DNA of 64,000 bases from the NCBI GenBank assembly GCA_950106755.1, contig OX467091.1, positions 27,111,538 to 27,175,537 on the forward strand, in the 5' to 3' direction. The DNA comes from Climacium dendroides (Eukaryota; Streptophyta; Bryopsida; Hypnales; Climaciaceae). Shown here in pieces: positions 10,864 through 41,511 of the stretch (its first letter is position 1; each line of letters begins with the position of its first letter). The notes beneath the pieces were generated by a model, which worked only from the letters and a program-made list of their open reading frames with translations, searched no databases and was not told where the DNA came from. The position numbers and the translations under genes were made by a program.

Positions 10864-10874
10864 AAGGCCTTATT

Positions 10875-14309: not shown

Positions 14310-14532
14310 TGTTGAGTCAAAGATAAAGATGTTCTATTGCAGCAACTTCTAGTATACTAGAAACTAAACATACTCTATATTCACTAATATTAACATCATG
14401 TCTCTATAATTTCTTACGAATACAACATCGTTGAATGGATGATCCAATGATTTGTGCTATGATTCAGTCATTCATCTTCATCTAAGTAAATACTTTTCAA
14501 TGCAAAGTTGCAAACACTTTATTTATAGTTGA

Positions 14533-17243: not shown

Positions 17244-18718
17244 TCGAAGTTGGCCTCAAATTCAACTTCGTCATTCGCATTTTGCTAGCGAAAGGCTCGG
17301 CTGGTGTGAGTATCCCCCTCAATCCCTCCATCCGGGTTGCATGATCCGCCACTGGTTTCCCTGGGGTACCTGAGACAAAAGGAAGTTCCCGAAAGGTGGA
17401 GAAATCCATCGCATGGTTTGGATCGATAGCCGCCAATAACTGTTGGATCTCCTTCAAAACTCGCTCTATCCTCGCAGTGAAGTCTACGAGGATGATTACT
17501 ACCTTGGTTCCGGTAATGTGGCCTTCCGATATCATCTTCAAGTCAAACAAGGCAGCTTTTGTGATGATGTCGGCCTTGATGTTGACTGCTCCGGATAGAT
17601 TCTTGACTAGAGCGAGAGCCTCTTTCTCTTTCTCTTTTGCAGCTGCCATTTCTCCTTCCGCCCAATTCACTCAGGCCTGGAGTTGGTTCCATTCTGCCTC
17701 CAATTCCTGGATCCGCTCCTTCTTCTTTGCTATGTCTTCCGGCCTGGCAATCGCTTGACAGCTTCTACGATCTGATCCGACTCCACTATTAAAACTTTCG
17801 CGGTATCTATCACCAAATCCGCCAAACCGTCGTGGAGTACCTTGGCTTCACGTATCCACTTGAGCCCCGCATTGAAAAATGCGGATTCCGTTTCCATTTT
17901 AGGTCCCTTGCTGGACTCCCCCCTCTCCATCGTCTGTGGCTTGGATCGCGACCCCGGATCGGTTGACTTCCTCTTCTTGGTCCTCGGATCGGTCAGACGT
18001 TCCTCGGGAAGTTCCTCCGGATCAGACTCGACCGGATCTCCGCCTCCTCCCCGGAAAGTCCGTATGACAAGATCGCCTTTCCGGTGTCATACTAGATTAC
18101 TTCCGCTGCACTCAAAAGTTCCTATTGATGGTACAGATGAAACAAGTAGGTGCTAACTGGACTCGCCTTTGCTCGGGTCACGTGATCTGCTAATTTAGCC
18201 ACTATCTCGGCTATGACCATACCCCAGTGTACTACCCGGTTCTCCATAGCCCCAAAAATAGTATTGGCCACCGTAATGGTAACCCGTGTTGGCTTTTCCG
18301 GATACAAGATCGGAATCAGAAACTCTAGTATCCGCTTATGTCTCTCGTCCTTGCATTCGCTGATAGCGAATCCGTCCTTAGGGTTTGCAGACCCAGTGAA
18401 CTTCCCAGCTACAAAACGGTCCGTCCTCGATGCTAACCCGTTCCCACTCTTCCGGAACTAATAGATGTCCGCCCAGATGTCCTCGGTCCACGCGACTGGC
18501 CGCCCTCTCAAAGTGAGTTCATACTGATTCGAAACACCGTGGAGTAGCTCTTGAATCATATCTTCACTCTTGAGGTTCCATGGTCGGTGTAGTAGACCGA
18601 CACATCCTAACTAAGTTAAGTCCTCCTCTAACTGCTTGTATAGTTCCGAGTTATCCGGAATGGCCGGAGAGTTAACCCGGGCAGATACCGCTACCTTCCG
18701 TACTGGTCCGGATGCCAT
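17244..18718 (-). pseudogene. ORF1 N-terminal and middle part, element Y LTR
   Basis: Starts MASGPVRKVAV at 18718. Conserved ORF1 blocks: LTKLGCVGLLHRPWNLKSED, TDRFVAGKFTGSANPKDGFA, EKPTRVTITVANTIFGAM, TYLFHLY. In-frame TAGs lie near 18460 (IY-stop-FRK, Gln in the sister copy), near 18131 (HQ-stop-ELLS) and near 18092 (EVI-stop-YDT); the last two are shared with the copy at 44585-46771. Frame damage also occurs near 17740. The function is unknown; the N-terminal half looks globular and the middle is helical with charged segments. The gene stops at LRPTS where the LTR arm of element X begins. Confidence 0.75.
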
Positions 18719-19138
18719 AAGATCTAAGTCAGAACAAGAGAAAAGTAGCTCTACTTCATTCGCTAACTCACCACTCTTTCTCTCAACTACTCACACAAAC
18801 AGTCTCAGAAGCACAGAATAGGAAAGTGAAGAAGAAAACCCTAGGAAGACAGCTTAAAATACTAAACCGTCTTTTTACGGGTTTAAGGACAACGGCTACA
18901 GGTCCGTTGTATTAACGGTATCCTACTTCCGTAGCTATGAGACCTATACGGTAGGTTCCTGTGTTCCGGGTGAGTCCGGATAAGTTCCGGTTACGGGTTG
19001 TGCCGGAACGCTTATTTCCTAATTCAAGCTATCTGATAAAAAAAAATCACGCTCTAACTAAAATTTTTTGATTTTTTTTCTATTTTCCGCACCTACTTCT
19101 TGTATTATTGATCCGTTTCCGGATTCCGGATTTCCACA
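18719..19138 (-). promoter_or_regulatory. 5' segment of the element Y 3' LTR: promoter and leader for ORF1
   Basis: Begins TGTGGAAATCCGGAATCCGG on the minus strand, directly after the purine tract AAAAAGGGGTAA at 19139-19152 that follows integrase. It contains a TATA-like TAGTATTTTAAGC and a leader of about 150 nt before the ORF1 ATG. It is close to identical to 24922-25366, the start of the 5' LTR. The purine tract and TG start mark a true LTR boundary. Confidence 0.85.
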
Positions 19139-19203
19139 TTACCCCTTTTTCAACTGTGAGAGTCCCCGCGAACATCCTCGACTTCGTCTTGGGAATCCGA
19201 TTC

Positions 19204-22200
19204 CTACGCGTACGTCTTAACCCAGGATTTATTTACCCTTGTGTCCATCCAAACCCCTTGAAGATCTTCTAGTTGAATGGATCCATTAGAGAATAATTGT
19301 CGCACTCTATATGGGCCCATCCATCTGGTGTGAAGTTTTTCTGGAAAAATCCGGTAACGACTATCATATAATAGAACTAACTCCCCTTCCTTGATCCCGT
19401 GATTGGTTGGTAATTTCTTGTTATGATCTGCCTTTCTTTTATCCTGTACTCTCCTCATGTGATCGAGGGCCACCAATCTTGCTTCCTCCAAATCTTCGAT
19501 AGCCATCAGCCGGATGTCCGGGTCGCTGGTCTGGATAGCGTTCCGGATTGACATCACTCGGTGTGATTCCACCTCTAACTCAATTCCATGGGTGGTCTCC
19601 TGTCCAAATACAAGAAAGAATGGACTTCTCCTAGTGGTAGTCTTCTGTGAGGTGTTGTACGCATGGACTGCAGACGAAAGTTTTAAATCCCAATCCGTCT
19701 TGTGCTTAGAGATGGTTTTATTCAAAACCTTTTCAACTATTCCATTGGCTCGTTCTGTCAAACCGTTTGCCCTTGGATTATAAGGTGTGGTCTTCCGGTG
19801 GGTGATCAGATACCTCTTGGTAATATTCTAAATGATATCATTCAGAAAATGGAGTCCTCGATCACTGACTAACTCTAGTGGGTGTCCAAACCTCATCAGA
19901 ATTTTCCGTGAATAGGAACGATGCTGTAGTCTGGGCGGAACTATTTCGGGTAGCCCGTGTTTCCACCCATTTGGTGGCATAATCCGTCGCCAAGATGATA
20001 TACTTCTTTCTTCTAGCCGTAACTGAAGAAATGGGACCTATGAAATCTATTCCCCATTTCTCAAAGGGAGCAATAGGCATGATTGGAACGAGTGGCCAAT
20101 GGTTCCGGAAGGAAGGAGCCCCTATTCGTTGACATTGGTCACAGCTCCCCACATGCTTCTTGACGTCCCGGATTAGATATGGCCACCAATATCCGGCTGC
20201 TCGGATCCGGTTCATTGTGGTGATAGCTGCGAAATGTCCCCCAAAGGGTCCGAAATGCAAGGCTCGCATTATCTTCTTCTAGTCCTTTGTTTCCACGCAT
20301 CGCCTTAGCTAATCATCTGCTCCCATTTTGAATAAGGTTCCTTTTATCAGTGAGTAAGGGCCAACCTTATAGTAGAACATGATTTTCTCCTCCATGTTTA
20401 ACCCCTCCGGGTATCTTCCGTCTACAAGGAAATCTATGATGTCCTGATAATCCGATCGAGTTCCTTCTTGTAGGTGGAACACAGATTCTTCCAGAATTTC
20501 CGGAAAGTCATCCGGGAATTCTGTGGAAATATCTTAAAGTGAAGTCGGTCCCTTAAATCTAGAGAGGTAGTCTGCATTTGCATTTGACTTTCCAGATTTC
20601 ACTTTTACTTCATAATTGAATTCTTGGAGTAATAACACCTACCTTGCTATTCTTCTGGAAAGGTCAGGTTTGTTTACCAGATACTTGAGTGAATCATGAT
20701 CCGTGTGGAATATTACTCGATACCCAAGCAGGTAATGTCGAAACTTCTTACATGCATAGACCACTGCCAACGCCTCCCATTCCGTGGTGGTGTATTTCCT
20801 TTCCGCCAAGCTCATTTGTTTGCTGGAGTAGTAAATGGGGCATTCTCTCTGGTGACTGTCGTGTTGCCAGAGGATTGCTCCTAAACACCATCTAGAAGCG
20901 TCTAGGGTAACATGAAATTCCTTGGTCCAATCCGGTGAAGACAAAATAAGGGCCTTGACTAATGCTGATTTCAAGGTCTCAAAAGTTTCTTGCTGTTCCG
21001 CACTCCACAAATACTCAGTATCCCTTTTTAGCAGTTCCGTAAGTGGATTAGCTTTCCGGGCATATCCATCTATGAATCTCCGATAATACCCTACACAACC
21101 AAGGAATCCTCGGATCTCTCGTACACAGGTTGGAGCAGAAAGGGTGAGTATGGCTTTGACCTTGTCCAGGTCTACCTCTAATCCTTTCCGACTAACCACA
21201 TGTCCTAAGAGGATTCCGGATTTCATTCCGAAAAAGCACTTTCCAGGGTGGAGCTTGAGATTTGTCTCCCTGCATCTCTAAAAGGTTTTTCGCAGGTATT
21301 CCAGGTGCGCATCCTTGGAACTGTATATAGCAAAGTCATCGATAAATACCTCTAGGAAGTGGCGTAGAAAATTCTAGAAGATGTCCATCATGAGTCATTG
21401 GAAAGTTCCGGGGGCATTGCATAATCCGAAAGGCATCCAGGTGAATGCAAAGGTTCCCCATTCCGTCGTGAAGGTTGTCTTCAATTGGTCTAATAACCGG
21501 ATGAAAACCTGGTTGTATCCGAAGAAGCCATCGAGGAAGCTGTAACATTCATTTCCGAAAATTGATCAAGAATGATGTCTGTAAAAGGAAGCGGAAAGTA
21601 GTCTTTCCGGGTTGCATCATTTAATTTCCGGAAGTCTTGGCATACTCGAATCTTGATCTTTCCTCCTGGGCCTGGTTTCTTTGGAACAACAACAATGGGT
21701 GAAACCCATTCTGAGTTGAGGACTGGGTAAATAAACCCGGCTTCTAACAAGGCGTCAATTTCCTCCTTCACCATCAAAGAGTATCTCGGGTTTAACCGGT
21801 GTTGTCGCTGGCGTACCGGAACCGCTCCTTCTACAAGGTCGATCCGGTGTTCTCCTAGTTCTGATGGTATCCCACTGAGGTCGGAGGGTGCCCAAGCAAA
21901 GACATCGAGATAATCTTCTAGAAGCTTCTTGTATTTAGCTTTTTCCGGAGCAGACATTGCTTTGTTAACAAAGAAAGTCTTTCCCGGAGTAACACTCACC
22001 TCCTCATACTCCACTGGGCTTACTATAGGCTTCCTCCTTTCCGGCTCTGGTCCATCTTCCTTGTTCCGTAACTCGCTCCAGACGGATCCTTGATTTGTTC
22101 GACCCAGTCCTACCGTTGGGAGATTCTCTTCGTTGAGCTGTCGTTTGATCCATTCGTATGATAACGGAACGCTCACCTCTCCTAATGACCGATCTTCCGG

Positions 22201-22842
22201 TATTGTTGGTGTCGGAGTTTCTGTTTCTTCCGTCGCAATTTCCAGGATGGGTTCCGGAAACTCAAAATCTGGTTCCGTAACAGACGTGAAGTAACTAGTC
22301 ACGGAATCGGAGTTCTCCTGATCAGACCAGTCCGTAGTATATCCATCGGACTCACTAGTCTCCCCCAAGTGATCAACATGTTTCCAAGGTATTCGTACGG
22401 CAAGTTTCCCCACCACGAATTCCTTGGCTCCCCAGTCAACCAGCACTCTTGCTGCATATAACCATGGTCTTCCTAATAGCATGGGAAAAGGCCTTCCCTT
22501 AGATACTCGGATGACTACATAATTTAGCAAATAAGTTTCTTTTCCGATCCGGGTTGGAATCCGGGCCAGCCTTCCTACCAGATACACTTTTGATTGATCT
22601 GCCATCCTCAAGACTTGGTCGGTTTCTTGGAATGTCGTGTACCTTAGATCAAAGGCGGTGTCTTCCAGTATAAGGTTGACTCCCGATCCGCCATCAACTG
22701 GAACCTGGGTGACCATACATCCTCCTACTTCGACTTCCAACTCTGGCGCTCCAAAGTCTTCGATTTGGGAGAAGTTGACTGCGACTGATGGAAGTTTGAA
22801 TCGCCTCGTTCCTTTCTTCGTCCAAGCGTCTCGGATCAATTT
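19204..22842 (-). pseudogene. Gypsy pol: protease, reverse transcriptase, RNase H, integrase (element Y)
   Basis: Same frame as gag, separated only by TAG at 22843 (NY-stop-KLIRDA). Protease: VPVDGGSGVNLI near 22690, the DGG variant of D(T/S)G. RT: EWVSPIVVVPKKPG, RVCQDFRKLNDATRKDYFPLPF and the catalytic VFIDDFAIYS near 21345. RNase H: TLDASRWCLGAILW, TEWEALAVVYA and FHTDHDSLKYL. Integrase: HFGPFGGH...SCDQC zinc region, FIGPI, IILATDYATKWVE, RANGLTERANG. A -1 frameshift lies near 21535 and a compensating +1 near 19905. TAGs sit at Q or W positions (about 21375, 21280, 20636, 20313, 20287, 19831), with one TGA (about 21403, from TGG) and one TAA (about 20523). Non-functional. Confidence 0.93.
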
Positions 22843-24855
22843 CTAATAATTTGCATTATCATGGAGGAATTGCCCAAAGGTGACACTAGCCTTTTGATCT
22901 TTGATATCTTGTACGATGTCGTACGTATCTAAGTTTGGTATCGGATTAATCAGAACCGGAACGTCCTCAAACGTAACCTTTTTCTTTCTAGGATCCGGAA
23001 TTACATCGATATTGTCCAAATTCTGTCGGACCTCCGAACCAATGTCAATGGAAATTGGAAGAGGTCCGACCCCTTTTTCTACTTCTACTATGGGTCTAAT
23101 AGGATCCGTCTCTTCCGAGTGATCAGAATCACTCGGATCGGATTCTAGAATGGGAGTGCTCACCTGAGGCTTTTCTTTCCGTCTCTGCCTTCTAGTTCAA
23201 TGCCTATTCCTTTGGTCTTTGGTGGAACTTCGAGTTGATACTCGATGAACGAGTCTTTCTACAACTTTTGGAAGTTCCACCTTTGGTTGTCATTTTTCCA
23301 TATTCTCAATTCCGGCAGTGGATCCGTAATTGAGTCTGGTTTGATCACGAGGTGGGACTTCTACATATTTGTAAATAGTACGGATCTATTGTGATCTGGG
23401 ACACTCATTCATTCCATGTCCATATTCTAAACAATTCTAGCATGGTAACGCTAGTGGGGCCCCTTGCCCTTGCCCTTTATGGGGACAGCTATTGGCATAA
23501 TGTTGGGGACTTCCACACACGAAACAACATCCGGGTGGAAATCTAGAAGTAGAATAAGTACCTTGACTAGATCCAGTCGGTGGATGCGTATGCAAATTGG
23601 TGCGGATCAACTACTGAGGTGCTTTCCCTCTTCCGTATCTGGTTTGGATCTGGAATATTGGATTCACCGGCTCTTCACACCCTTTCGGTTCCGGAAGTGT
23701 GTAGTACACTCCTTCTTCATCCACAAAATGGATCTGCTTCTGATGTCCCTGGGGGCATTCGCTTGCATAATGACCGGGTCTTCCACACCTTGCACACCAT
23801 ACATTAGCTCGGGAAGTCGGTACAATCCGTCGAGGCATTCGATTATCAGCTAGGTTGACCTTGATTGCCTCTAAAGATTCTTGGATGCTCTTCATAAGTT
23901 TCTTGGAATCGTCCTCCTCCACCTTCACCTTGACGGTTCTTCTGTTAACCTTCTCGTTTTTACCTTGCGCCACTCGTCTGCTGCTAGAAGTCTCTACCTC
24001 ACTATCCAAACTGTCGGCGCTGTCGGATGACTCGTCCGATCCGGTTCCGGAACTCGAGGTTTTGGAATCTGAATACCTCCCTCTTCGCTTCATCTTCTTC
24101 TCGTATTTTTTGCACTTCCCTTTCTTTCTTTTCTCGCTCTTCTTAATGGATCGTCGTAGCGATTGAGCTAAGTTCTCGTAATTTTGGGCTGACTCCATGG
24201 CTTCTCTTAGTGTTGCGGATCGGGATTGTCGGATCTGAAAATCCATCTCCTCTGGAAAACCTGCCACATACCATTCCACTTGTATACTCGGGGCTACGTC
24301 CGTGGTTAGGTTTTTGATCAGGTCTTTCACCCTCTGATCATATTTTCGGACCGACTCGTTGGGTCTCATAGAGACTTTACTAAGTCTCCCCAAAGCTCTA
24401 GCTTCTCCTCCTACTTCTCTAAAGGTCCGTAGGAAGAGTTCCGTCAAACGGTCCCAGTTGTTCCGGGTACCTTCCGGAACATCTTGATACCATCTAAGGG
24501 CTTCACCTTTTAGTAGTCCCTGAAAAATTCTCTATCTGGAGGCGGCATCTTCTTGATTAACTATAGTAGTAGCTTCAAATTCCCCCATCCAATCATCTAC
24601 ATTCTTACTACCGTCTCCCCAGAACCTACTGTAACGGAGACGCGTGGTAGTCACCATGGTATCTGGTTCGTCAGAGAATCGTTCCTCTTCAAAGGTAATA
24701 GGTTCCGCTTCTAGTTTCTCAACCACTTCAGGGCTTTGGGAATGTTCCGAAAGTACTTCCGGCCTAAGAGGAATCATAACCAGATCCTCTACGGACTGTG
24801 ACGCTGGTAACACGTGCACCACTATTCGCCTATTTTCTTCCTCTTGACGTTCCAT
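22843..24855 (-). pseudogene. Gypsy gag with three CCHC zinc knuckles (element Y)
   Basis: Starts MERQEEENRRIVVHV at 24855 and runs in one frame into pol. The retrotransposon gag core is seen in FWGDGSKNVDDWMGEF, GLLKGEALRWYQDV and NNWDRLTELFLRTFRE. A basic, Ser-rich stretch follows, then three CX2CX4HX4C knuckles: CARCGRPGHYASEC, CFVCGSPQHYANSC and C-stop-NCLEYGHGMNEC, the third containing a TAG that fits CQNC. Other in-frame stops: TAG near 24532, 23611, 23390 and 22843, TGA near 23290 and 23200. The acidic spacer before protease holds DPRKKKVTFEDVPVL. Gag and pol share one frame, so the ancestral product was a single polyprotein. Confidence 0.9.
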
Positions 24856-24921
24856 CCGACGTAAAGCTGTATTTCTTCTTTGAGGCCACTCATGAAGTTA
24901 GAATCAGATTCTTGTTTACTT

Positions 24922-25366
24922 GTCCGGATGCCATAAGATCTAAGTCAGAATAAGAGAAAAGTAGCTCTACTTCAGTCGCTAACTCACCACTCTTTCTCTC
25001 AACTACTTACACAGACAGTCTCAGAAGCACAGAACAGGAAAGTGAAGAAGAAAATCCTAGGAAGACAGCTTAAATACTAAACCGTCTTTTTACGGGTTTA
25101 AGGACAACGGCTACAGGTCCGTTGTATTAACGGTATCCTACTTCCGTAGCTACGAGACCTATACGGTAGGTTCCTGTGTTCCGGGTGAGTCCAGATTCCG
25201 GATCCAGATAAAATCCGGTTACAGGTTGTGCCGGAACGCTTATTTCCTAATTCAAGCTATCTGATAAAAAAAAATCACGCTCTAACTAAAATTTTTTTAT
25301 TTTTTTTTTATTTTCCGCACCTACTTCTTATATTATTGATTCGTTTCCGAATTCCGGATTCCCACA
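24922..25366 (-). promoter_or_regulatory. 5' LTR of element Y, truncated to its promoter segment
   Basis: Begins TGTGGGAATCCGGAATTC at 25366 next to TSD GTCAT. It matches 18719-19138 closely up to and just past the ORF1 start (ATGGCATCCGGAC, ATG at 24934-24932), then switches to gag leader. ORF1 and the LTR 3' arm are therefore missing from the 5' LTR. Either a deletion fused promoter to gag, or this family has unequal LTRs. Confidence 0.8.
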
Positions 25367-25596
25367 GTCATGGAGTCGAGGAAGGAGGATTTGTGTTATT
25401 ATACAATAATCGGCATGAAGACTTTCCGGGTAAAATGCATACCAGATGGATGGGGCCATATAAGGTAAACAAAATTTACTCCAATGGATCACTCCAACTA
25501 GAAGATCTGGGAGGAATTGAGATGGATACCAGAGTCAATGGATCTAGGGTGAAGAAGTATAATCTAGAATCATTTTCTGACCCGGATTCAAGCTAA
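25367..25596 (+). pseudogene. Ty3/Gypsy integrase C-terminal part (element Z, continuation of 9005-9951)
   Basis: Reads SHGVEEGGFVLLYNNRH, KMHTRWMGPYKVNKIYSNGS, LEDLGGIEMDTRVNGSRVKKY and stops at 25596. It aligns with the end of the element Y integrase (NHGIKEGELVLLY...). The first five bases repeat those before 9952, so this is the other half of the same gene. Confidence 0.9.
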
Positions 25597-25675: not shown

Positions 25676-26394
25676 TGTGGAAGCACGGGTATCCTGTCTT
25701 TAGGTTTAGAAGGGAAATAAGGGGATTAGAGCTCCTTACTTCCTATTTTTTTCGTTTCTTCTTTAAAAAAGTAGACCGTAAGTAGTTAGGAACCAGATAC
25801 CGGAATAGGATTACTTTAGAATTAATAATAGTGTTAACAAAAGTAACCGAAAACTGAAAACCCGGAAACGGCATAGTTAGGTCAAGAGTAGGTCAAAGTG
25901 AATTTTATTAGAAACCGGAAAGCGGAAGAAAATAAAAGACCGGAGACCGGAAACGGATGGCAGGCAATCCGGGTGTAACGGGTGCCTACCTAGTTCTAGA
26001 CCACACTCGAGAGCAGGTCTATTTTGAGGAAAATGGTCACCTGTAACAGTCCCCGGTGAATGAAGCCCTAGAAATAGAAGGGGCAGGTGGCTATGATTTC
26101 CTTTTGCTGGAAAACTACCTTAAGAAGAGACTCGTAAGGAGCATTTGCGGTGTACTTACATGTCAGCCAAAGAGAAGAGTTACGGGCTCAGTTTACGGTC
26201 TAGATTAAGAACAGACGGGTCTCAAGAGGAGAGTTCGCTTAGAAGTTCACGCGTGAGTGTAGAATTAGGAGTGTACTAGTGAGACGACTCTTGAGGAGGA
26301 TCCTTGAGCGGAGTAAGAAGATTAGAGCGCTAGTGATTGTGAGACTCCAAAAAATAATTCCGGTCACTGAGAGGTTTAGAGGAAACAGGCCACG
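25676..26394 (+). promoter_or_regulatory. Element Z LTR promoter and leader segment
   Basis: About 720 bp between the LTR start and the ORF1 ATG, rich in accggaa-type words, with an AT-rich middle (agaattaataatagtgttaac). I see no secure TATA box. No ORF of note. Confidence 0.6.
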
Positions 26395-28267
26395 ATGGTG
26401 AGAGAAGAGGTAGCTGTATCCTTACGCATGGTGAAGCCGGTGGTACCAGCTGATCCAAGAGAGAAAGCGGAGCTAAAAGAAGACCTCCGGCAGATGGGGT
26501 GTGAGGGATTTCTAGCCCGGCCGTGGAAATTGAAGGACGAGGAGATCGTGAGGGAGGTAATCGGCGCGCCATTGAGGAAATGGAAGGGGATGTCGAGGAG
26601 CCGGCCCAAGGACTGGACTCCAACACTGTGGCGGGAGAGGTACGATTTCAAGAAGACGGACAAGGGACCGGCTTCCCGGACGGACCGCTTCTTTGTGGAT
26701 AAGTTCCAGAATCTTCCAACGAAGAAGGATGGTATCCCTGTGGCAGAATGCATAAATGGTAGAGAGAAACAATTAATGAAGTATCTAGCAGCCATCCTTA
26801 GTCCAGAGCGGCCAAACAGGATTACGGTCACCCTAGCGAACACTATTTTTGGTGCACTGTCTGGTGACCGGAAAGTAGATTGGGGCGTAGTGATGAGAGA
26901 TCAGATATAGAGATTGGTAGGAGGTATAGGGAAGTCTAAACCTTCCCCTATAACCCCTTTTCTCTACCACTTGCACCAAGCACATGGCTGGCTTACGAAT
27001 AGAGAGTTAGATTCATACAATACGATTAAAGCCATGTTAGAATTTAAAATAGAAGACCCGGATGAGGAAGCCGGACAAGAAGAGGAAGATTCAGAGTCGG
27101 ATACTATACCGGTCGAGGAAGCTATGTCACAGTGGAGGAGGCAGGACCGGAAGGACAAAGACCAAGAAATAGGAGAGGGTAGTAAGGATGTCGATCCTGT
27201 TTGGAACTAGAATCCCCTGGGTCGGATTGTGAATGAACTCAGTGAGTTCCGGGTTCGGTATGGGAAGAATCAAGAGATTATTCAAAAACTATACCAGTTG
27301 TTGAAAATCAGTCAGCCGCAGCAGCTCGTTTCCCAACTGGACCGGAAGATGAAAGAGGCGGTGAAGAAAGAGCTGAGCGAATCCACGTATAAGGTGGACC
27401 AGCTAAAGAAAGAGCTGGAGGAGAAGAGAGAAGAACTGGACCAGTAGAAGAAGTTCACCAAAACAGCCTCAAAGAATCTTCAGGCAATCTGGGAGTTCAT
27501 CGGCAATCCGGGCGAAGTAATCAACAAAGCAATGTTGTTTGACGAGAAGGTGATGGAGACCGGAAAGCAAATTCCAGCCAACCTAATGATGGCGCTAGTG
27601 TCCTACCACCGCAAGATGGAGGCAATAGTAGATTCACTTTGCGAGGTGATGAAGGAGGTAGAAGAACGAAGAGAGCGGGAGCAAGGACCGGAAACGGAGA
27701 GGGAACTCGCACCAGCACCTCTTTCGGTATCCGCAGAAGAAGTTCAGGCGAAGGACAAGGTGGAGGACGTACCAAGCTCTTCCATCTGGTCGGAGCCTAA
27801 GGGAGAAATGATTTCCCTACTGGGGGAAGTAACGGACATTGCTCTCAATGCAGCAGAAGCAGTAAAGGCTGCTCAGGAAGAGAAGACCAGAGAAGTGGAG
27901 ACAACAGGCGAGGCGAAGGAAACACCGGAGGAGGTGAAGGCCGCAGATGAAGAAAAGACGAGATCTGGACTGGAACCGTTCGAGAAGAAGAACATGCCCA
28001 AACTAGGGCTGAGCAACAAGTTTATCGACCTAAGTGAATTGACTCCAGTTTCTCCAACTCCTCCCGCAAAGAAGGAGAAGGTATTTCCTTCCACCCCACT
28101 CAACTTAGCTTTGGGAAGCGAAACTGGGTCAAGGGAGGAAAGGAAGACCAGATCACAAGGGCAAGGATCCGGGAAAGGTAGAGCGATTGAAGAAACCACT
28201 CCTCAGAGTGCTAGGGTCAATGTTCCGCCCACACCAACCACGCAAAAGAAGAAGCCTCCAATTATGT
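26395..28267 (+). pseudogene. ORF1 of element Z, first part
   Basis: MVREEVAVSLRMVKPVV opens the frame. Conserved blocks: LRQMGCEGFLARPWKLKDEE, DRFFVDKFQNLPTKKDGI, ERPNRITVTLANTIFGALSG, FLYHLHQ. Then an acidic segment, a coiled-coil-like KKELEEKREELDQ, and an Ala/Glu/Lys-rich C-terminal half. In-frame TAGs near 26908 (DQI-stop-RLV), 27208 and 27445 fit loss of CAG or TGG. The frame reaches KKKPPIM, is cut by a solo LTR at 28268, and resumes at 32133 (SAQKKRPIPPEDDD). No known domain is recognised. It probably encoded an element-specific protein, expressed from the LTR promoter. Confidence 0.8.
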
Positions 28268-28896
28268 TGTCGTAGACCAAAATGAGAGGATGAGGATGGT
28301 TATATAGAATATATAAGTAAGGAGTGGACATTGGTAAAATTTTTTGATTTGCAAGATGGCAAACTAATTATATTACCAATATTAATCCTACCTCACTATT
28401 GGATTAGTAGTAGATAGATAATTTGGTTATGAAAGATATTGTAAGATTCCTATTTTTCTAAAGATCCGGAACCAGATCCGCATCCGAGGAACGGAACAGG
28501 GGTCGAAAAATATACTGGGGTCGAAAGCAAACGCATCCGCACGCTACCGGAAGATTATCGGGACGGGAAGAGGAAATCTCGGATCCAACGGTAATCCCAT
28601 ACATCACGGAGGACCGTTTTAACAGCTAGATTCCTCCGCGATGATTGCGAAAACGGCTACTTTTCCAACGGTTGTGACTGCTAGGAAGGGATACGCAGGG
28701 GTTTGGTTCCTCAAACCTCATTGTGTCTTTGTGGTTTGGGAACACTCTCAGAGCAAGGTCTGCCTTTAGAGGTGTGAGAGGATTGGGTGATATTACTTTC
28801 TGGATCCTGTCGTAGAGAGGAGGAAGATTGAGCAGGAGCTGTGGCAAGAAAAGGCAGGAGGTTTGAGTGGTGAGTGTTTTGGAGAGTTCTGCAACC

Positions 28897-30795
28897 ATGG
28901 TGAAGGCGGAAGCAAGCGAGTCATTTTCTTTCAAGATCAAGAGCATCTGTCTAGTGATTCCGAAGGATGACGGAGAGCGGAAGCAACTAGAGGAAGATTA
29001 GGGCCAACTCGGGTGTGCAGGATTCCTCTGCCGACCATGGAGCTTGAAGAGCGAGGAAATGATCCAGGGGCTGATGAAGGAGCAATTGAACGAATGGATC
29101 AAGACCGTCCGAGCTTTGTCCGAAAGGTGGACTGTGGACATCTGGAAGAGGGTCTACGACTTTCCTCGACCTAGAGAAGGGATGGCTTTGCGGGTACACA
29201 AGTTCGTGGAAGGTAAATTCTCTAATCCTCCTCATCCTAAGGATGGCTACGTAGTAGCAGATTGCAAGGTGGCAAGAGAGAGGAGGATATTAGAATTTGT
29301 AGTACCGATCCTGTATCTGGAACGGCCAAACCGGGTCACGGTAACTTGGGCCAATACGATCTTCGGAGCGTTGAGTGGGGAAAGGAAAGTGTTTTGGGGA
29401 GGAATAGTGAAAGATCTGGTAGGGAAGATGGTGAACGCCCTAGGAAACGCAAAGGCCACCCCCATTGGGCCATTCCTCTTTCACCTATATGACTTCCTAG
29501 GTACTCTGAAAACTTCAGAGAAGACCATGTATAAGGCCGCAGCCACCCTAGTGAAACTTAATCTTACTCCACCCCGAGAGGAAGAAGAAGAAGAGAGAAA
29601 GGAAGGACCAGATGAGGGATCTAAGAGGGGATCCTCAAAGAGAAGGAAGGAGCCTTCCGAAAGGAAGACAGAGGCTGAGAGGGTTTCAGTCTCTTCTAAG
29701 AAGGGATCCAAAGAGAAGAGGAAAGTCTCGCCGGAACCAGAAGTTCTGGGAGAGGATACTTTGGGGAGGATCATTTCGGACTTAGGGAGAGTCCGGGAGG
29801 AGCTTGACACGGAGAGAGGAGCAATGAGGAATGTATGTGGACTGCTTGGAGGGATCAATGTGTCAAAGCTCGCGGAGAAAGTAGAAGGGTTGATCCGGGA
29901 TAATGAAAACCGGAAGTGGGAGATCCGCATCAAGGAGTTGACTGAGAGGAATGCGGATCTCTAGCGGCAAATTGAGAAGGGTGAGGAAAAGAAGAGAGAG
30001 GTGGAACGGCTTACCTCAGAGTTTAAGGGGGCCATTAGGAGAGTTGGGGCCTTTGTTTCCAACACTGCGGATGTTGTAAACAAAGCCAAACTCTATAATG
30101 AGGGAATCCATGAGGCAGGACCGGAAGCCACATGTAAGGCTGTCTTAGTTTTGGCAGAGTATTCCGAGGAGATGGAGAGGTTCTTGTTTGAAGTACGAGA
30201 TGTTCTTCACCAAGCAGAACGGTTTCCGGAATCCAGAATAAAAAGGAAGGATGAAGAGATGGAGCCAACCAAGAAGGATGCGCCCACAAAGACTCCAACA
30301 AAGACGCCAGCCAAGCGGGAAAGGCAGGAGGATGAGTTGACACCAACCTCTAAGGGTATGGTGGGGAGGAAAGAAGGATCAGTGCACGGATCCAGATCAA
30401 AGGATCGAATCCGGAAGTCGGAATCCGACTTAGGCACACCATAGAGTAAAGGCTCTCAACCCTCACCCGCCAAGAAGACTGTGAAGAAGGTTACTCCCGT
30501 CAGAGGAAGAGACGTGCCTCTAAAGAGTCAACAATCCGCGGAGGACGAGTCTCCAAGCCAATCCGAGTGGGAAGAAAGTCGGTCGAGATCCGGAGAAGAG
30601 GATTCGGAAGACACCGGATCAGAAGAGGAATCGGAACCTGAGCAAATCTCACCAGCAAAGTTCAAAGGGAGAACCTCAACACCGTCTAAGGGGAAGTCAC
30701 CCTTGAGTGGGAAACCGTCAACTAGTAGGAAACAGCCAACTAGGAAGGGGGCAACAAAGTTAGAGGAACCTTCTCCAAAGAAGGCTAGGAAATAG
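28897..30795 (+). pseudogene. ORF1 of solo LTR D
   Basis: ATG at 28897 in the context gcaaccatgg. After MVKAEASESFSFK come LGCAGFLCRPWSLKSEEM, FVEGKFSNPPHPKDGYVVAD, ERPNRVTVTWANTIFGALSG and GPFLFHLY. A long Lys/Glu/Arg-rich region, then KTPTKTPAKRER and a Ser/Glu-rich tail ending PSPKKARK at 30795. In-frame TAGs near 28998, 29962 and 30442 each fit a lost CAG or TGG. It is divergent from the element Z copy yet keeps all blocks, so the protein was under selection before the elements died. Function unknown; the basic tail could be nuclear or nucleic-acid binding. Confidence 0.75.
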
Positions 30796-32132
30796 ATAGG
30801 AAAGTTGTTAGGAAGTTTCTGGGAAGCGACCCTAGCATGGTCAGCCAAAAACTCAAGTTTTTGATAGGTAGGAAGTAGCTTGGGAGGTGCTTTTCAAGTG
30901 CATGCACTTGGGCTGCATTTTCCAGATTTTTAGGATCTGAGATCCACATTTTGCGGATCGGATGGGGTTGGTAGGAAAGTCAACTTAGAAGGATAAAGAA
31001 TGACACCTGTCATTCTCCTGTCCTTTAGTTTTATTTTTTGGGACCTTTGGGGTTCCCTGGATGTGTGTATTTAAGGGGCTGAAGTTAGTTTGAAGCCCCG
31101 AGTGTTTTCTTATTTGTGTTTTTCAAACACTTTGCGAATTGATTTCAAATTTCCACTTCATAAGTACTGGCCTAAAAAGGCTAAGTTCTGTGTTGGTATG
31201 CCATGCAATGCTAGAACCATTGTTTAGTGCGGGTAGCTGGTTTGCAGGTGTGGAGGAAGACAAGTAGCCCCCGGATTCTGTCCAGAATCTAATTTTGAGA
31301 GCTTTGAGGATTTGGTTAAGGAAAACTTTGTGTACTGAGAGGGTATTTTAGTTGCTGAAGTTCCTTGGGAGTCTTCTGAGTAGGATAGCCATTCTTAGGT
31401 TGGGTGAATTCTTTAGGAGGGAGAACGAATGCTAGCCGACGTCTGATGAGGTCCTGTTGGATCTGGAAGAGAGGAACAGGAAGGTAGTTAGGATCTCTCA
31501 ATTATCGGGTGCCAGATCACGCTCTTGGGGTCCTGTCCGGATAGGTCTGTCGTTGTAGTATTGGGAGGATAATAGGGGTTTCCTGAGTGACCTGCTAGTC
31601 TGGATCAACATCCGGATTAGTTATGAGGAAGTAACTATTTCCTATTTTTTTTTGGTATTTGTTGTTGTTATTCTAAGTGGATCTTCATTTCACTCTAAAC
31701 ACGTTTGAAAGGTAGGGTTTACGTTCCCTTCCTAAAATCAAAGAGCGGAACCCTCTTGGTAGAGGTAAAACTAATATTTTGTGAGTTACTGCAATCGGAT
31801 AGAAATCCTCTTTCTAGTTCCGCATCCGTCTAAGTCGATCCGGATAGAGAGAAGCACAAGATTATGACAATCCTCCTTGTTCGATTACTGGTGGAAGACT
31901 TGGAGTGGACGTAAGGGAATTGGAGTATGGAGAGGAAAGAGTATTGAGAGAGTTTCATGTTGCAAATATTTAGATCCGGTTTTGCTTGGGTTTGGTGTTT
32001 TCCGAATCCTGTTCTGGATATCTTGAGGAAACTAACGTTGAAATCATGTGGGAACGATACACGAGTCATCTAAGGTGTTTTACATCAATTTAACACCTAA
32101 GGGTAGGATTTGTGCTTCCTTGTGCTATGACA
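30796..32132 (+). repeat. 3' arm of solo LTR D
   Basis: Holds the conserved motif GGATCTGAGATCCA (30933), a TATA-like gtgtatttaagggg (about 31065-31079), the block tcgttgtagtattggg...gagtgacctgc (about 31551-31596), and near the end gtgggaacgatacacgag followed by a hairpin (aaggtgtt / aacacctt). No gene is seen. Confidence 0.75.
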
Positions 32133-32391
32133 TATGTCAGCACAGAAGAAGAGGCCGATTCCACCAGAGGACGATGACGAGGAGGAAGAAGAAGAAGAGG
32201 ACGAGGATGAAGAATCCGGGACTGAGGAAGACTCGGAGCCGTATTCTGACCCGGATCAAGCACTAGCAAAGACTCGGGCAACTAAGGCTGCAGCATCCAA
32301 GAAGAAGAAGCTTGCCGCCCGGGGTAAGGTACGCCAGGGACAGAAGACCGGAACCGAAAAGAAGCCGACCACGAAGAAGTTAAGAACTTAG
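32133..32391 (+). pseudogene. ORF1 of element Z, C-terminal part
   Basis: Continues the frame broken at 28267: SAQKKRPIPPEDDD, a run of Glu/Asp, then KTRATKAAASKKKK and KKPTTKKLRT before a TAG. Acidic then Lys-rich ends are typical of the ORF1 copies here. Confidence 0.8.
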
Positions 32392-33814
32392 GAAATTACT
32401 TAGGGTAAATTTTTGAGGATATGGTGGTGAAAGTCTAAAGTTTTGGGATAGCTGTATATAATTAGTAAGTTTACTTTTTGAGTGACACGGCCACTAGCAG
32501 TTGGAAAGTAACCGGGTCCGTAATTATAGGATCTGAGATCCACTTTTAGCGGAAGTAGTGGGAGTTTGAGTGAAAGTCAATACGGCTAGAAAATAGTAAG
32601 GGAATGAAAAGTGTTTGGCCTTGATTGGATGGAGGATTACTTCTAGGTTAGGATTTTGAGGGAGTAGTTTAGTATTTAAATCCGGGGCTTGTTTGGTCCC
32701 GATGTGCATCTTTATCTTACCTTCTTATATTCATGAGTACCTGGAAGTTCGCTCTTGGCGTGATTGAAACAAATCATAGTTGTGTGTACTTGACACTTGT
32801 CCATGTTTTGGAAGTCCAAGTTGGAAAGTGAGTGTAAGTGGATACAAGGTGTGCCCGGATGCTGAGTTTATCCGGTCCAGTATTGGGTTAGTGTGTGTGG
32901 GCAGAGGCAAAAGGGATCTTTAGTGTGGACTCGGAAGGAGTACGGAGGAGGGGTACTCTCCGGAAAGAGTAAGGGTTAGCATGCCTCCACAGCGCTCGTT
33001 TCCCCTTATTGTCCCCGTTAGTTCAGACCGGATTTAGGACTAACTCAGTAGGTTGTCGTTGTAGCATTGGTTAGAAGGAATTAGACCGGCTTGCGTGACC
33101 TGCTAGACACGACTGCGTTTCCTTTCCAGTTGTGAGGACGATTTGTTTCTCATTTGTAGGATTTCAAAGTTTATTTTTGAAAGTTTGATCACATAGTGAA
33201 ACTTCTGACACTTTAAAATCGGAGGGTAGGAGTTAAGCTTCCTTCCTCAATCCCAATTAGCAGATCCCTCTTTGTTTAGAGGTTAAACTCGACATGGTTA
33301 CGAGTAGAGATCTAGACCGGATGTGAATACTAGAGGTTAAGGTTAGATCTGTGGAAACGCGGATCCCAGTTACGGTCTATAAAACGTAAATACGGAATAC
33401 TACTTGAGGTATGTAAATAGAAGTGTTGGGAGAGTTACGGGGTAGTGTAAAGTTGTGGGGTAGTAAACTAACCAGTTAGAGAGTTTGTGTGATAAACAAG
33501 TGTAAGTTAAACCGAATTAGATCCGGTCAATATTGTTAGATCGGGAAGATCCGGTCTAACGTGTATTAGTAATTGTTGGACCGGAGAGATCTGGTCGTGT
33601 TTGTCCAAGAAAGCAAGGAGACCAAGGGGAAGTTCCGGTCTATTGTTTTGCTTGGGGTTTTGTGTTTTTGTAACCATCACTCTACCATTTTCTGGTAATT
33701 GTGAACCTAGCTAGGAATTCGATCTTCGTGGGAACGATACTCGAGTCACTTTAAGGCCTCTTTTAAGAAATATTGAGCCTTAGAAAAGGATTTTTGCTTT
33801 CCTGTGCTACGACA
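32392..33814 (+). repeat. 3' arm of element Z LTR
   Basis: Shares with the LTR D arm GGATCTGAGATCCA (32529), tagtatttaaatccgggg (TATA-like, about 32670), ttgtcgttgtagcattgg...gcgtgacctgc (about 33053-33103), and gtgggaacgatactcgagtcac near the end. A hairpin (aaggc / gcctt) lies before the terminal gctacgaca. Confidence 0.75.
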
Positions 33815-35090
33815 CCATTACCTCACCGGATGCCCCTATTACTGTTGTCATCCGGTTGATTGCAGTCCTGGTCTCCTCCTGTAGGGACATTGCGGCCTTC
33901 ACTTGGTCGCGACTAGCATCCAAGTCCTTCCGGTAGCTTTGGATTTCTCCTCGCAACCGGACCACCTGCTCGTCTGTCTCCCATTGGTTGATATTCTGCT
34001 TCAGCAACCTATCCTCCAACTCGTTCACTTCATCCGGATTGCTGATGCAGTTTGCCACGGCTTCCGACAGAGAATTGGTCGGAGCGCTTCCTACCAAATT
34101 CGCCACCTCATGAATCATCGTGGTCTTCACTTCCCAATCCGCTCTCACTGCACTGAGAATCCGGATTAGGTCATTGTATGGACCCATCAGGTCCAACAGC
34201 TAGGACGATGGAACGGGTCTCGGCTTGACCACTTCCACCGGCTCCTGCTTCTTTGGGATGACTGGCTCCACTAGTTCCAGTCCCTTATCCTTCCGAAGCC
34301 CCAAAGGGGCCCCCCTCAGACTGGGCGTCCTCTTCATCCTTCGGTTGAGAGGAATGTCATCTTCCTCCTCTTCCTCTTCTACTCAATTCTTCTTCTTAGG
34401 GTTCTTACTCTTCTCCTCCGATTCCGGGCTATCCGGTTCCGTCTCGGATTCCTCATCCGATCCACCGCACGTCCGGAGAGCCATCTGCGCCCTCCACTCC
34501 TTGTTCTCCTCCGACGTCAAGAGACTCTGATTCTTGTATAGGTGGAAAAGGTAGGGGCCTACTAGAGTAGCCCTACACTTGCCCACATTTGAGACTAAGA
34601 CATTCACCATCGTTTGAATGAATGCCGCCCAATCCATCCACTTCTCTTTACTCAAGGCTCCAAAGATCGCGTTTCCGAGCGTGGAAGTCACCCGGGTGGG
34701 TTTTTCCGGATGTAGAATCGGGACCAGAAATTCCAGAAGTCGTTTGTGTCACATATTGACGCAGTCCTCGATTGCGTACCCGTCTTTGGGGTTAGTTGCT
34801 CCCTGGAACTTCCCACGCACGAAGTCTCCCTTCCGGCTAGCCTGTTCCGCGCCGCCTTCCTCCAAATCGTAAACTTTCCTCCAGATCTCCCTAGTCCACA
34901 TGGGCGGAGCCGGTCGGATAATGTTGTCAAACTGGTTAGGGGCTCCTTCGATGGGCTCTCTCAAAATTACCTCGTTCCGAAACCCCCAGGGTTTTCCTAG
35001 GAATCCTGCGCAACCCATGGCGGAGAGGTCCTCCATCAATTCGACTCTCTCCCGCTCACTACTAGGCTCTAAAGGAGCCACTTTCTTCAT
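33815..35090 (-). pseudogene. ORF1 of a fourth LTR (element W), C-terminally cut
   Basis: MKKVAPLEPSSERER at 35090, then LSAMGCAGFLGKPWGFRNE, DFVRGKFQGATNPKDGYAIEDC, EKPTRVTSTLGNAIFGALSK and GPYLFHLYKN, an acidic stretch (about 34340-34470), and a helical region. Stops: TGA near 34752 (NM-stop-HKR, likely from CGA), TGA near 34383, TAG near 34203. The frame ends at the LTR end of element Z, which was therefore inserted in it. Confidence 0.75.
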
Positions 35091-35760
35091 TCTAATTTCT
35101 ATCCTCTGAGCGCTCGCCGGTACCTAATTTCGTTCGCGCTTAAACTGCAGCATTCGTCTCTTTTTTAGATTGCTACCTCTCTTCTCTCCTAGCCGCACGT
35201 CCCGTTTCCTCACACACACTCCTCGGTCTCAATTGAATTGCTCAATGCACAAGTCTCGCAGTGCTCCCTTTTTCTCTCTCTCTCTCTCTCAATTTTCGCC
35301 TCATTCACGCACTCAATTCTTCTCTAATCCCTGCGTCCGTGTAAAGAGAACAAACGCACTCACTTACAACTCTCAGACTTTGCACAATTCACACACAAAC
35401 ACACTCAATTTGTAGACACAAACTCAAAGCATTGAGAGCACGCCAAGTATGTTGGTGCTCCCAGGTGCAAATGACAGTCAAACTCTAAAACAGTCTCTTT
35501 TATACCCCGAAAACCTAATCATTACTTTTTCCGATTTTCCAGACGCAAATCCTAGATCCGTTCCTCCGGTTATGGGATTAGATCGGATTCGTTTCCGATA
35601 TCCGCTCCGCTCCATAATCCGGTTCATTCAGGGCTTATGTTTCTAGTCTTTCTAACTCTTGGCTTTTCTTTTCCCTTCCGTGCTAATCCGAGTCTATTTA
35701 ATCCAGATTTCGTGTTACAGAACACGATAGAGAGAAAAATCAAAAAGTTAGGTTGCAACA
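35091..35760 (-). promoter_or_regulatory. Promoter and leader segment of element W LTR
   Basis: Starts TGTTGCAACCTAAC at 35760 on the minus strand and leads into the ORF1 ATG. It contains a (CT)n run near 35275-35290 (plus strand). The flanking GATGT at 35761 may be one TSD copy; its partner was not found. Confidence 0.65.
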
Positions 35761-37617
35761 GATGTCAATGCTGTTTTTGGACTGAGTGAGGTGTCAGCTT
35801 CGAACTTGAGTAAAATTAGGTGCTGTAAGTTCCCTGAGTATGAGGTGAAGAAGCCTGGAGACAATTTTGCGCGATGTGACTCGTGTGACAAATTACAAGA
35901 CCTCAAAAAGGGTGCTATAAGTGGGTTTCACAATGAATTGAAGTATTCTCGGAAGTTGGATAGGCACATTGAGATTGCTCAAGCTCATCGAGAGTTGTAT
36001 TATGCAAACTGTCAACGTTCAATAGCTTTTCCACACAAATGCCTCACAGTTATGCACGACAAGATGGATCATGCAAAGACTGCTTCTCTAATCTTTTTCC
36101 ACAGGAGTAAGGAGCTTGATGGCCTTGTGAAATTGCCTGTGTCTGTCACTAGCATGATTACTCATGGTCATGGAGATGTGCGTTACGCACATTACGGTTT
36201 GGATCTCTTTAAACACGATTCAAACTATACAATTGGTTCTATGACAAAGTTGTTGCGGGATCTGGAATTGCCATCAAAGTCTTCTTCTCGGCAATTATTT
36301 CTGGGTCAGGGTCTTCAAATTTGTTTAGGGTAGTGCTGCAGGGTAAAGAAATGTGCGACACATCACTGCCACCACCTCCAATGAATGCAGTTCCAACAGT
36401 GCCTTTGCCTCCTATTTTGAACGTGCAAATGGACAATGCCACCGGCGACAACAAGAACACATATGTTTTCTGTTTCTGGTCTCTACTTGTTGCTAACAAG
36501 ATCTTTCGAGAAGTGTATGTCAACTTCATGATTGTTGGTCACACACACAACGACATTGACGCATTGTTTGGAAGATGGAGCATGCTGTTGAAGAAGGAGA
36601 ACTTCCCAACAATCTCGGCGCTCATGAAGTCATTCATGGATGTTGAGTCCATTCCTACTATCCCTCACCTCATAGAGGAGGTGCCTGATTTCAAACGTTT
36701 CATTGCAGAAAAATGGATGGATGGTGATGAAATCCTTGTGGGACACATAAGACCGCAACAAGTGAAGTTCTACCTAGACTCTGTTGGATGCCCAGTCATG
36801 AAGTACAAGTTGAAGTGCACGGATGAAAACTAGTTAGGCAAGCAAGGTCAAGCCATTAAGTTGTGGAAAGAAGACGATAAAGAACAGAGTCTGTGGCCAC
36901 GTGGTGTGCCTTTGCCAATACCATTCAAGCCAATGAAAGGTGTCCATGACATTGTCAAAGGTTTATCAGGATTCATAAACTATTGGGACGACTTGTGTAA
37001 AGCAGACGTGAGTGGAGAACATTATAGGCGCTATGAGAATGTGGTGCGCTATTGGCGTGGTGTGAAGGCAGATCTTCAAGAGCCACTTCCTACTTCTAGT
37101 GCTCTAAAAGACGGTTTCTGGCCAACTACTCGTATTCAAGCAACAAAAGCTGATCATTTAGACGAAGATGGCGAAGATCTCGAGGAGCATGGAGAGGATG
37201 AGCCTTATGTTGGGCCCTTGACGGATCGTCTACAACCATCCTTTAGGGTGGCTCGAGATATATACGAAGGATATTTTGTTGCAGTTCGCCCTGCAGATGG
37301 TGACAGCAGACTAGTTTGGATTGCCAGAGCATTGTCTGATCCAAACTCTAACCCCGAGAAATCAAACTGTGTGCTCATTTAGTACTTTCGGCCAACATCA
37401 CGCAATCAAGAAGTTCAAGACTTCTATGAAGGATGGGATAGTGATAGAGGTTTGCTTTGGAGGGTTGATGAAACCAAAGAACCTACGTGGGAGACAACAA
37501 ATGCTTTGATTACAGCATGGAAGTCTCAAAACAAAAGAGGTACTCGCCAATGCAGAATCAAGATCCCTACAGTTCAAATTGAAATCATCAACCAGAGTTT
37601 GGCTTCATATACATGAT
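35761..37617 (+). pseudogene. DUF7869-type transposase-like gene, copy 2, 5'-truncated
   Basis: Begins within the homologous region (DVNAVFGLSEVSASNLSKIR against ESNAEFNLQLISSSGLSNIR of copy 1), so the N-terminal third is missing. Kept motifs: CCKFPEYE...FARCDSCDKL, LTVMHDKMDHAKTA, HGHGDVRYAHYG, VQMDNATGDNKN, IVGHTHNDIDALFGRW. A frameshift lies near 36290, a TAG near 36831 (DEN-stop-LG, Trp in copy 1) and a TAG near 37380 (LI-stop-YF, Gln in copy 1). Stop at 37615-37617. Protein similarity to copy 1 is moderate, so these are different subfamilies. The third triad site reads HNDID instead of HEDID. Confidence 0.75.
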
Positions 37618-38397: not shown

Positions 38398-39245
38398 TTT
38401 TAGGTCCTAAATGGACAATATTATTATGAGAGGCCCTAAACCTCTCAAAATATTGAATATTGTATTGGAAGGTGGTATCCAAGATACCGCTTTTCGGTCG
38501 CAACAGATCCGCCATTAGACTCTCCTCCCGGATGCCCCAAGGGATATCTATCAATGCCTCACATCCCATGTTGGTGAGGTTCTGTCGTAGTCGCTCCATC
38601 CGAACCTCATCAGTTGGAATTTCTGGCACCACCTACATTAACGGAATTGCCTTCGGCCGGGGTGGTGGCGCTGGAATCAGCTCGTTTGAGTCCTCCGGCT
38701 CCTGCCTCAGCCTACGCCGGCTTGCCCTGGAAGTCATCACACTTACAAGAAACTACGCACAATCTCTTCCTAATCCTCTTGCTCACAAAAGATCACTCCG
38801 GAACACCCTGCACGATTGCAATTCACACAGTCCTTCAATCTACTGGAAATTTCTAAAAGCTGGAAAAGCAAGAAAATGAAGATGGAAGAAAGTAAGAAAG
38901 CAACTGTGCCTTCCACTAGCTACAGTCCTCTTCTTATATTGGCTAGACGGATGGGCGGTCGGACGAGAGTACGGGATAGGTTTTGGCGGCAAAGCCTAAC
39001 CCTAGTACGGATCTGATTTTCGGCTTTTAGGGCCGGCGCTGTCATCCGTTTTCCGGAAATTTTTAGGGTTCCTGAATTAGGTTCTTACACCTAATAGGCT
39101 TTCTTTGGATCTGGAGTTCTGGTATTTCTGAAATCCTTCTAATCTTCTATGGGGATTCAAAAATTTTCTTTTAAAGGAATAAATTTTGAAATTTCCCGTC
39201 AAATGCTAGTTTTCTGGGTCTAGCATGTGGGATCACACTCCCACA
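38398..39245 (-). pseudogene. LTR fragment with ORF1 N-terminus
   Basis: The minus strand begins TGTGGGAGTGTGATCCC at 39245, the TGTGGG start used by the Y family. ORF1 starts MTSRASRRRLRQ near 38738, has a TAG near 38634, then MERLRQNLTNMGCEALIDIPWGIREE, and decays near 38440. The rest of the LTR is absent. Confidence 0.65.
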
Positions 39246-41373: not shown

Positions 41374-41511
41374 GTCATACGCGTAGTTAGCCGTAAGTAT
41401 CCTTACAACGACGTATTGTTGCAAGATGACACGAATTATCATTCCAGGGAACTCTAATATGATATCGGTTGAGTTAGAAGTATCCGGATCGTGACTACAT
41501 CCACTAGTAGA

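Follow-up and report, generated by a model that had tools for sequence, protein, structure and literature searches.

Can a retrotransposon of the plant lineage carry a protein-coding gene inside its long terminal repeat (LTR)? The question is raised by a window of 64 kb, free of N, from contig OX467091.1 of Climacium dendroides (forward strand, 27,111,538 to 27,175,537). Its contents are a stack of nested retrotransposons, in which a long open reading frame (ORF), termed ORF1, follows the integrase in two elements, E+ on the plus strand and E- on the minus strand. The 3′ LTRs of E+ and E- are called A and C, two solo LTRs are called B and D, and the ORF1 copies take the same letters. We find it probable that these are Ty3/gypsy-like LTR retrotransposons in which ORF1 is part of the LTR, so that each cycle of reverse transcription likely gives both LTRs a copy and the gene likely stays self-contained in every solo LTR.

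Position of ORF1 between the purine tract and the LTR end

The two elements have different integrases but a single order: integrase, purine tract, TGTGG, ORF1, 3′ arm and an ACGACA end. This order had been put forward in a preliminary description of the window and is borne out on both strands. On the plus strand, E+ reads ...GTGAAAATGGGGTAA|TGTGGAAGC, with the LTR starting at 25676 and ending in GCTACGACA at 33814. On the minus strand, E- reads ...GTTGAAAAAGGGGTAA|TGTGGAAATCC, which places the LTR start at 19138 rather than at 19152, as first described. The purine tracts GTGAAAATGGGGTAA (E+) and GTTGAAAAAGGGGTAA (E-) directly precede TGTGG, as is typical of Ty3/gypsy elements, and so is the gag-pol order of protease, reverse transcriptase, RNase H and integrase. 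Pfam matches support gag, RNase H and the integrase zinc domain; the rve and rve_3 matches of the E- integrase are weak and under their cut-offs. The protease and reverse transcriptase were recognized by reading the translation, and a Pfam scan of their piece (21493-22842) gave no match up to E 0.1. A coding sequence is found between the purine tract and the LTR end, the arrangement that marks an LTR-borne gene.

The boundaries of E- bear directly on this point. The element runs from 25366 (5′ end, TGTGG) to 9952 (3′ end, ACGACA), and the whole of it is delimited by the target-site duplication (TSD) GTCAT, which was absent from the preliminary description. Its 5′ terminus opens with the post-tract sequence TGTGGGAATCC, as it should if second-strand synthesis is primed at the tract, and its 3′ terminus, ACGACA next to the TSD, is located beyond ORF1. 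In standard reverse transcription everything from the post-tract sequence to the 3′ terminus is LTR. Because E- starts with its post-tract sequence and ends past ORF1, ORF1 falls within the LTR.

The layout seen in the LTR of E- recurs in solo LTRs B and D. Both had been described as ORF1-bearing units without gag or pol that behave as TSD-flanked solo LTRs, and this holds for B (TATGT, 28263-28267 and 32133-32137) and for D (GTAGG, 41368-41372 and 47203-47207). As the solo LTRs predict, the gag and pol pieces of E-, used as protein queries on the window, matched E- and E+ alone. Three insertions (E-, B and D) thus terminate at the predicted LTR ends with perfect 5-bp TSDs (GTCAT, TATGT and GTAGG). 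These are the TSD length and the TG...CA termini of Ty3/gypsy elements, save that the start of LTR D is mutated from TGT to TAT. The 3′ ends read ACGACA in A and C and ATGACA in B and D. Without inserts, LTR A measures 4269 bp (the interval 25676-33814 less nested B and one TSD copy), B 3865 bp, C about 3549 bp and D about 3554 bp. More than one LTR occupies the interval 25676-33814, since a second, complete ORF1-bearing LTR (28268-32132) is nested inside it.

The insertion boundaries are also confirmed, without recourse to the TSDs, by the empty sites. The E+ integrase frame runs through the site of E-, with two TAG stops, and matches the E- integrase piece at residues 2-143 to one side of the site and at residues 142-206 to the other side. 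Across the site of B, ORF1 A is in frame throughout, to its lysine-rich end. The flanks of D align through the junction with the 3′ arm of LTR A, with a 2-base gap that corresponds to two right-flank bases omitted from the comparison. The earlier placement of ORF1 inside the LTR is therefore supported by the termini of three bounded insertions and by the purine tract upstream of ORF1 in two elements. With the tract in that position, ORF1 would be copied into both LTRs at reverse transcription; its presence on both sides of gag-pol is what solo LTRs B and D and the course of reverse transcription lead us to infer.

Coding constraint on ORF1 and its predicted product

An ORF1 profile search over the six frames of the window returned eight rows. 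Seven are real and represent six copies (A, B, C, D in two pieces, F and fragment G); the remaining row is noise (score -2.4). Five or more copies had been said to keep the same sequence blocks. These blocks do stand in the alignment, and some copies carry substitutions in them; for example, A has LYHLH for LFHLY. ORF1 A and ORF1 B match each other in tblastn (E = 6e-45), and a blastn self-comparison, in which matches over 80 bp were listed, contains none between them. On the protein match, the A-B resemblance is not due to chance.

ORF1 C and ORF1 D belong to one family and were compared over 481 codons. Differences at codon positions 1, 2 and 3 number 53, 33 and 132 (p 1.9e-16), or 9, 7 and 21 for transversions alone (p 0.003). 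The ratio of nonsynonymous to synonymous divergence (dN/dS, NG86) is 0.125 (127 codons), 0.042 (91), 0.163 (158) and 0.203 (99) in four segments; for the middle segment, where D is frameshifted, the best of three frames was used, and the second frame gives 0.146 across 39 codons. The codon-position counts support former coding constraint on ORF1, and the past selection proposed earlier, for which dN/dS had been the suggested check, agrees with this third-position excess and with ratios of 0.042-0.203. Between families A, B, C and F (six pairs), amino-acid identity is 0.37-0.455 and the proportion of synonymous differences (pS) 0.74-0.82. A dS could be computed for the A-B pair only (dN/dS 0.17), the other five pairs being saturated. 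The integrases of E+ and E- are 63-69% identical in three pieces, and their ORF1s (A and C) 40%. By these identities ORF1 evolves faster than this integrase part of pol, yet it has been kept in place.

Stop codons in the window are unevenly distributed among the three types. Fourteen pieces (ORF1 copies, gag, pol and the E+ integrase) hold 21 TAG, 2 TGA and 0 TAA in frame, a count in which two TAGs are natural ends and some pol pieces were selected as open frames. In the same pieces CAA, CAG and CGA codons are of about equal frequency (57, 60 and 51). The TAG excess would fit decay of CAG at CHG methylation sites. A cytosine-context test of ORF1 C against D found no clear CHG concentration of C-to-T differences, which therefore do not establish methylation decay.

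ORF1 is about 630-710 codons long, and its conserved blocks lie within the N-terminal 210 residues. Beyond this domain comes a charged segment with many K and E residues, and then a further region of weak conservation (VxNKAxLF-like in A, B and C), an acidic run and a lysine-rich tail; in ORF1 A, residues 601-660 include 20 D/E and residues 661-708 include 16 K/R. No credible match was obtained in Pfam (best Iron_traffic, E 0.037, in one of six rows), NCBIfam (best E 0.053, one of six rows), PHROGs (one piece only) or the PDB sequences (best E 1.1). Three Pfam scans were run, one up to E 0.1 and two up to E 10, with HMMER filters that discard most weak matches; the plant mobile domain (PF10536), Transposase_28 (PF04195) and Athila ORF-1 (PF03078) are absent from their lists. 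A pattern scan of IMG/VR with ORF1 B gave 90 matches, with no relative among them. Identity of ORF1 with Gag was considered and rejected, as the profiles of ORF1 and of the gag of E- showed no match when compared. PF20167 is not in the Pfam scan lists, and a resemblance of the ORF1 domain to it is not claimed. An AlphaFold2 model from the six-row alignment was unusable (mean predicted local distance difference test score 40.2), and its helices were disregarded. From its layout, ORF1 might, very tentatively, be a nuclear accessory protein that acts on the nucleic acid or chromatin of the element.

Promoter-like boxes and competing arrangements

Two sets of TATA-like boxes were found in the LTRs. 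The upstream box, TATTTAA, lies at about LTR position 290 in the 5′ LTR remnant of E- (E5) and in D; in C it has an extra T and sits slightly earlier, C being without 13 bp there. It is located about 140 bp 5′ of the ORF1 start in the C/D family. The second box, TATTT(T)AA, occurs once per 3′ arm, 208-281 nt past the ORF1 stop, in all five arms (A, B, C, D and e, a partial LTR). The box behind ORF1 suggests that ORF1 lies in the U3 part of the LTR: the upstream box of the C/D family would drive ORF1 and the second box the genomic RNA, and with two promoters so divided, ORF1 would occupy U3, the same place as sag of mouse mammary tumour virus (MMTV). Most simply, the arrangement would have arisen from an accessory gene located downstream, which turned into LTR sequence once the priming purine tract lay upstream of it.

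Other non-coding sequence is conserved as well. LTRs A and B have further common blocks near the 3′-arm box (GGATCTGAGATCCAC; last 150-170 bp), and all five 3′ arms contain the stretch GTCGTTGTAG, followed by a TGACCTG-like motif; these are candidate binding sites. The near-palindrome GGATCTGAGATCC, common to the arms of A and B, is another candidate.

Several observations weigh against an LTR-borne ORF1 with two promoters. The window shows no intact element in which both LTRs carry ORF1, and E-, the sole element with both ends there, retains just about 450 bp of the LTR on its 5′ side. The E- sequence before gag is without ORF1 body, ACGACA end or primer site. All five sizeable ORF1 copies (A, B, C, D and F) now carry in-frame stops. 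A scan of LTR A found no upstream box, and LTR B has only a TATA-rich stretch of another kind near its start. For the 3′-arm box, 0 of 2000 base shuffles put it within the 200-300 interval of every one of the four arms tested (A, B, C and e), and 44 of 2000 did so for a single arm. The zero overstates the signal because the motif was picked after the arms had been viewed, the shuffles preserve base composition only, and in e the position of the stop comes from an alignment. Finally, synonymous sites have diverged more between ORF1 C and D (dS 0.5-0.65) than the non-coding LTR has (84.5% and 83.9% identity, about 16% divergence), for which we offer no explanation. This excess looks as if the non-coding LTR were constrained too.

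The short 5′ LTR of E- is 92.9% identical to the start of LTR C with gaps counted, and 95.9% identical across 414 ungapped columns. The match stops at about codon 6 of ORF1 and is followed by the gag leader, with AGTA common to both LTRs at the break. In our reading, a deletion extending from ORF1 into the leader produced this junction. The fusion of the first ORF1 codons to the gag leader would also be produced if ORF1 lay in R/U5. The upstream box, about 140 bp ahead of ORF1 in the C/D family, would then make the genomic RNA with ORF1 as its first gene, gag-pol would be spliced from near the ORF1 start, and E- would be a copy recording such a splice. We regard this as unlikely: spliced RNA that lacks a primer site should not go through the usual reverse transcription, the AGTA shared with the intact copy also suits a plain deletion, and it is the 3′-arm box that is present in five of five arms, the upstream box being confined to E5, C and D.

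That the two ends of E- have only about 450 bp in common could also mean that the true LTR is of this size, with ORF1 either internal or in a separate non-autonomous element. LTRs of about 450 bp had been named in the preliminary description as the finding that would speak against an LTR-borne ORF1, and the 5′ side of E- fits them; the 3′ side does not. A 450-bp LTR cannot account for E-, because its 3′ terminus (ACGACA), with matching TSD, lies past ORF1, and on this ground we rejected it. Moreover, B and D are TSD-bounded at TGT (TAT in D) and ACA ends, and in the self-comparison the first 450 bp of B and D do not recur at the opposite end; such a short LTR is thus very improbable. Just as improbable is an LTR-borne ORF1 that is a mere passenger with no role in the element, which the five broken copies and the lack of a known domain would allow, but which the strong third-position excess within a family and the blocks conserved across families contradict.

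Nested insertions in the window and comparison with known systems

Innermost in the stack, solo LTR B lies inside ORF1 A, which lies inside the 3′ LTR of E+, whose integrase is interrupted by E- (9952-25366). ORF1 F (minus strand, 35108 to 33816) adjoins the right end of E+, and since the two abut, E+ was probably inserted into ORF1 F. The left end and the 5′ LTR of E+ were not found within the window. Solo LTR D (minus strand), which holds later inserts at about 41499-43538 and 46154-46389, was itself inserted in the 3′ arm of a further A-type LTR, H, whose end is 47571. All features are listed in Table 1.

Table 1. Retrotransposon and ORF1 features mapped in the window (positions within the 64 kb).
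Feature	Position	Strand	Basis or remark
Element E-, Ty3/gypsy-like LTR retrotransposon	9952-25366	-	TSD GTCAT on both sides; E+ integrase continuous across empty site
TSD GTCAT, left copy of E-	9947-9951		Pairs with 25367-25371
TSD GTCAT, right copy of E-	25367-25371		Pairs with 9947-9951
5′ LTR remnant of E- (E5)	24917-25366	-	Similarity to LTR C stops shortly past ATGGCATCCGGAC
gag of E- (Retrotrans_gag, zinc knuckle)	23614-24531	-	PF03732, E 9.8e-12
Protease and start of reverse transcriptase, E-	21493-22842	-	Translation; named by motifs
RNase H of E-	20642-21277	-	PF17919, E 1.2e-32
Integrase of E-, two open pieces	19207-20278	-	PF17921, E 1.2e-12
LTR C (3′ LTR of E-): start, promoter-like box, ORF1 N-terminal and middle part	17245-19138	-	Self-comparison, protein search
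Remainder of LTR C (ORF1 tail, 3′ arm), inverted	15589-17243	+	Matches 43539-45062 in inverse orientation
Second copy of LTR C 3′ arm, left end of E-	9952-10867	-	97.7% identical to 16328-17243
E+ integrase, left part, split by E-	9073-9951	+	64-69% identical to E- integrase
E+ integrase, right part	25372-25596	+	63% identical to E- integrase; contiguous with left part
LTR A (3′ LTR of E+)	25676-33814	+	4269 bp without nested LTR B
ORF1 A, part 1	26395-28267	+	Stops at codons 172, 272 and 351, all TAG
ORF1 A, C-terminal part beyond nested LTR	32138-32391	+	Frame continuous across empty site
Nested solo LTR B, 3865 bp	28268-32132	+	TSD TATGT
ORF1 B	28897-30795	+	Three internal TAG stops
Solo LTR D	41373-47202	-	TSD GTAGG; flanks continuous as 3′ arm of another A-type LTR
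ORF1 D, broken, carries insert	44588-46774	-	Protein search, alignment, profile search
ORF1 F	33816-35108	-	Protein and profile searches
ORF1 fragment G	38492-38650	-	Profile score 19.5, E 1.9e-7
Partial LTR e: ORF1 tail region and 3′ arm	49727-51280	+	Self-comparison
LTR H, A-type, 3′ end; site of D insertion	47203-47571	+	D flanks align with 3′ arm of LTR A

E- was later rearranged internally. The latter half of LTR C now lies inverted at its original site (15589-17243), and the final 916 bp of this half recur at 9952-10867 in the opposite orientation with 97.7% identity; between the two copies of the 3′ arm (9952-17243) lie a DUF7869 transposon and tandem repeats. The DUF7869-bearing transposon protein is present twice, at 11427-13988 (minus) and 36432-37613 (plus), with 47% identity across 394 residues. 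The stretches 14532-15583 and 42410-42748 contain a tandem array, its units about 191-223 bp long, and a minisatellite of 9-bp period. In addition, a phytochrome gene in several pieces was mapped to 56570-60815 (plus), with PAS_2, GAF and PHY within 57008-58702; such a gene is in keeping with the green-plant lineage. An open frame of 594 residues at 5534-7315 (minus) has a weak protein-kinase match (E 9.6e-6, under the curated cut-off), and one of 211 residues at 3023-3655 (plus) matches NLI-interacting-factor-like phosphatase just above the curated cut-off (E 3.4e-5). An Rfam scan of the window gave no match at gathering thresholds.

Sag, which targets the vertebrate immune system, is the closest parallel in position. 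The MMTV LTR is described in passages of PMC3026287 as exceptionally long, about 1.3 kb, since it encodes Sag, and the same passages report two sag mRNAs, with starts in the 5′ LTR and in env (PMC3026287). As with sag, a protein gene inside the LTR lengthens the LTR here, a likeness of position only. Unlike the elements of the window, MMTV is an animal retrovirus with env; the LTRs described here reach 3.5-4.3 kb, and those of the C/D family have their own TATA-like box before ORF1. Large retrotransposon derivatives (LARDs) are non-autonomous elements with giant LTRs of several kb, described as non-coding. The LTRs of the window resemble those of LARDs in size, but they are protein-coding and are carried by gag-pol elements.

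Additional ORFs of plant LTR retrotransposons (Athila, Ogre, Retand, Grande and Bagy2) are placed in the internal region in the relevant passages of PMC7264820, and those of Retand between pol and the 3′ LTR, mostly antisense, in passages of PMC11963269. These elements likewise have a conserved extra gene beside gag-pol in a gypsy background. ORF1 differs from their additional ORFs in being sense, in following the purine tract and in having no PF10536, PF04195 or PF03078 match. For plant non-chromoviruses, passages of PMC6317226 give LTRs of up to about 5 kb and mention no LTR gene. A literature search by titles and the openings of abstracts, with most subscription papers outside its coverage, returned no LTR-borne ORF in a plant or algal element.

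LTRs usually pass as non-coding sequence. A gene maintained inside one would double at each insertion and would survive LTR-LTR recombination, so that loss of the element would leave the gene behind. This would affect the annotation of solo LTRs and the way in which copy number could set the dosage of a protein that the element encodes. Somewhat more speculatively, there may be a whole clade of plant-lineage Ty3/gypsy elements with the LTR as a gene cassette, comprising its own promoter, a conserved nuclear accessory protein in U3 and a second promoter for the genome. Solo LTRs would then form a dispersed, still-translatable gene family, and ORF1 would be the first U3-borne accessory gene outside retroviruses; we hold this larger picture to be possible rather than probable. 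An ORF1 in the LTR would show the sag-like arrangement arising outside retroviruses.

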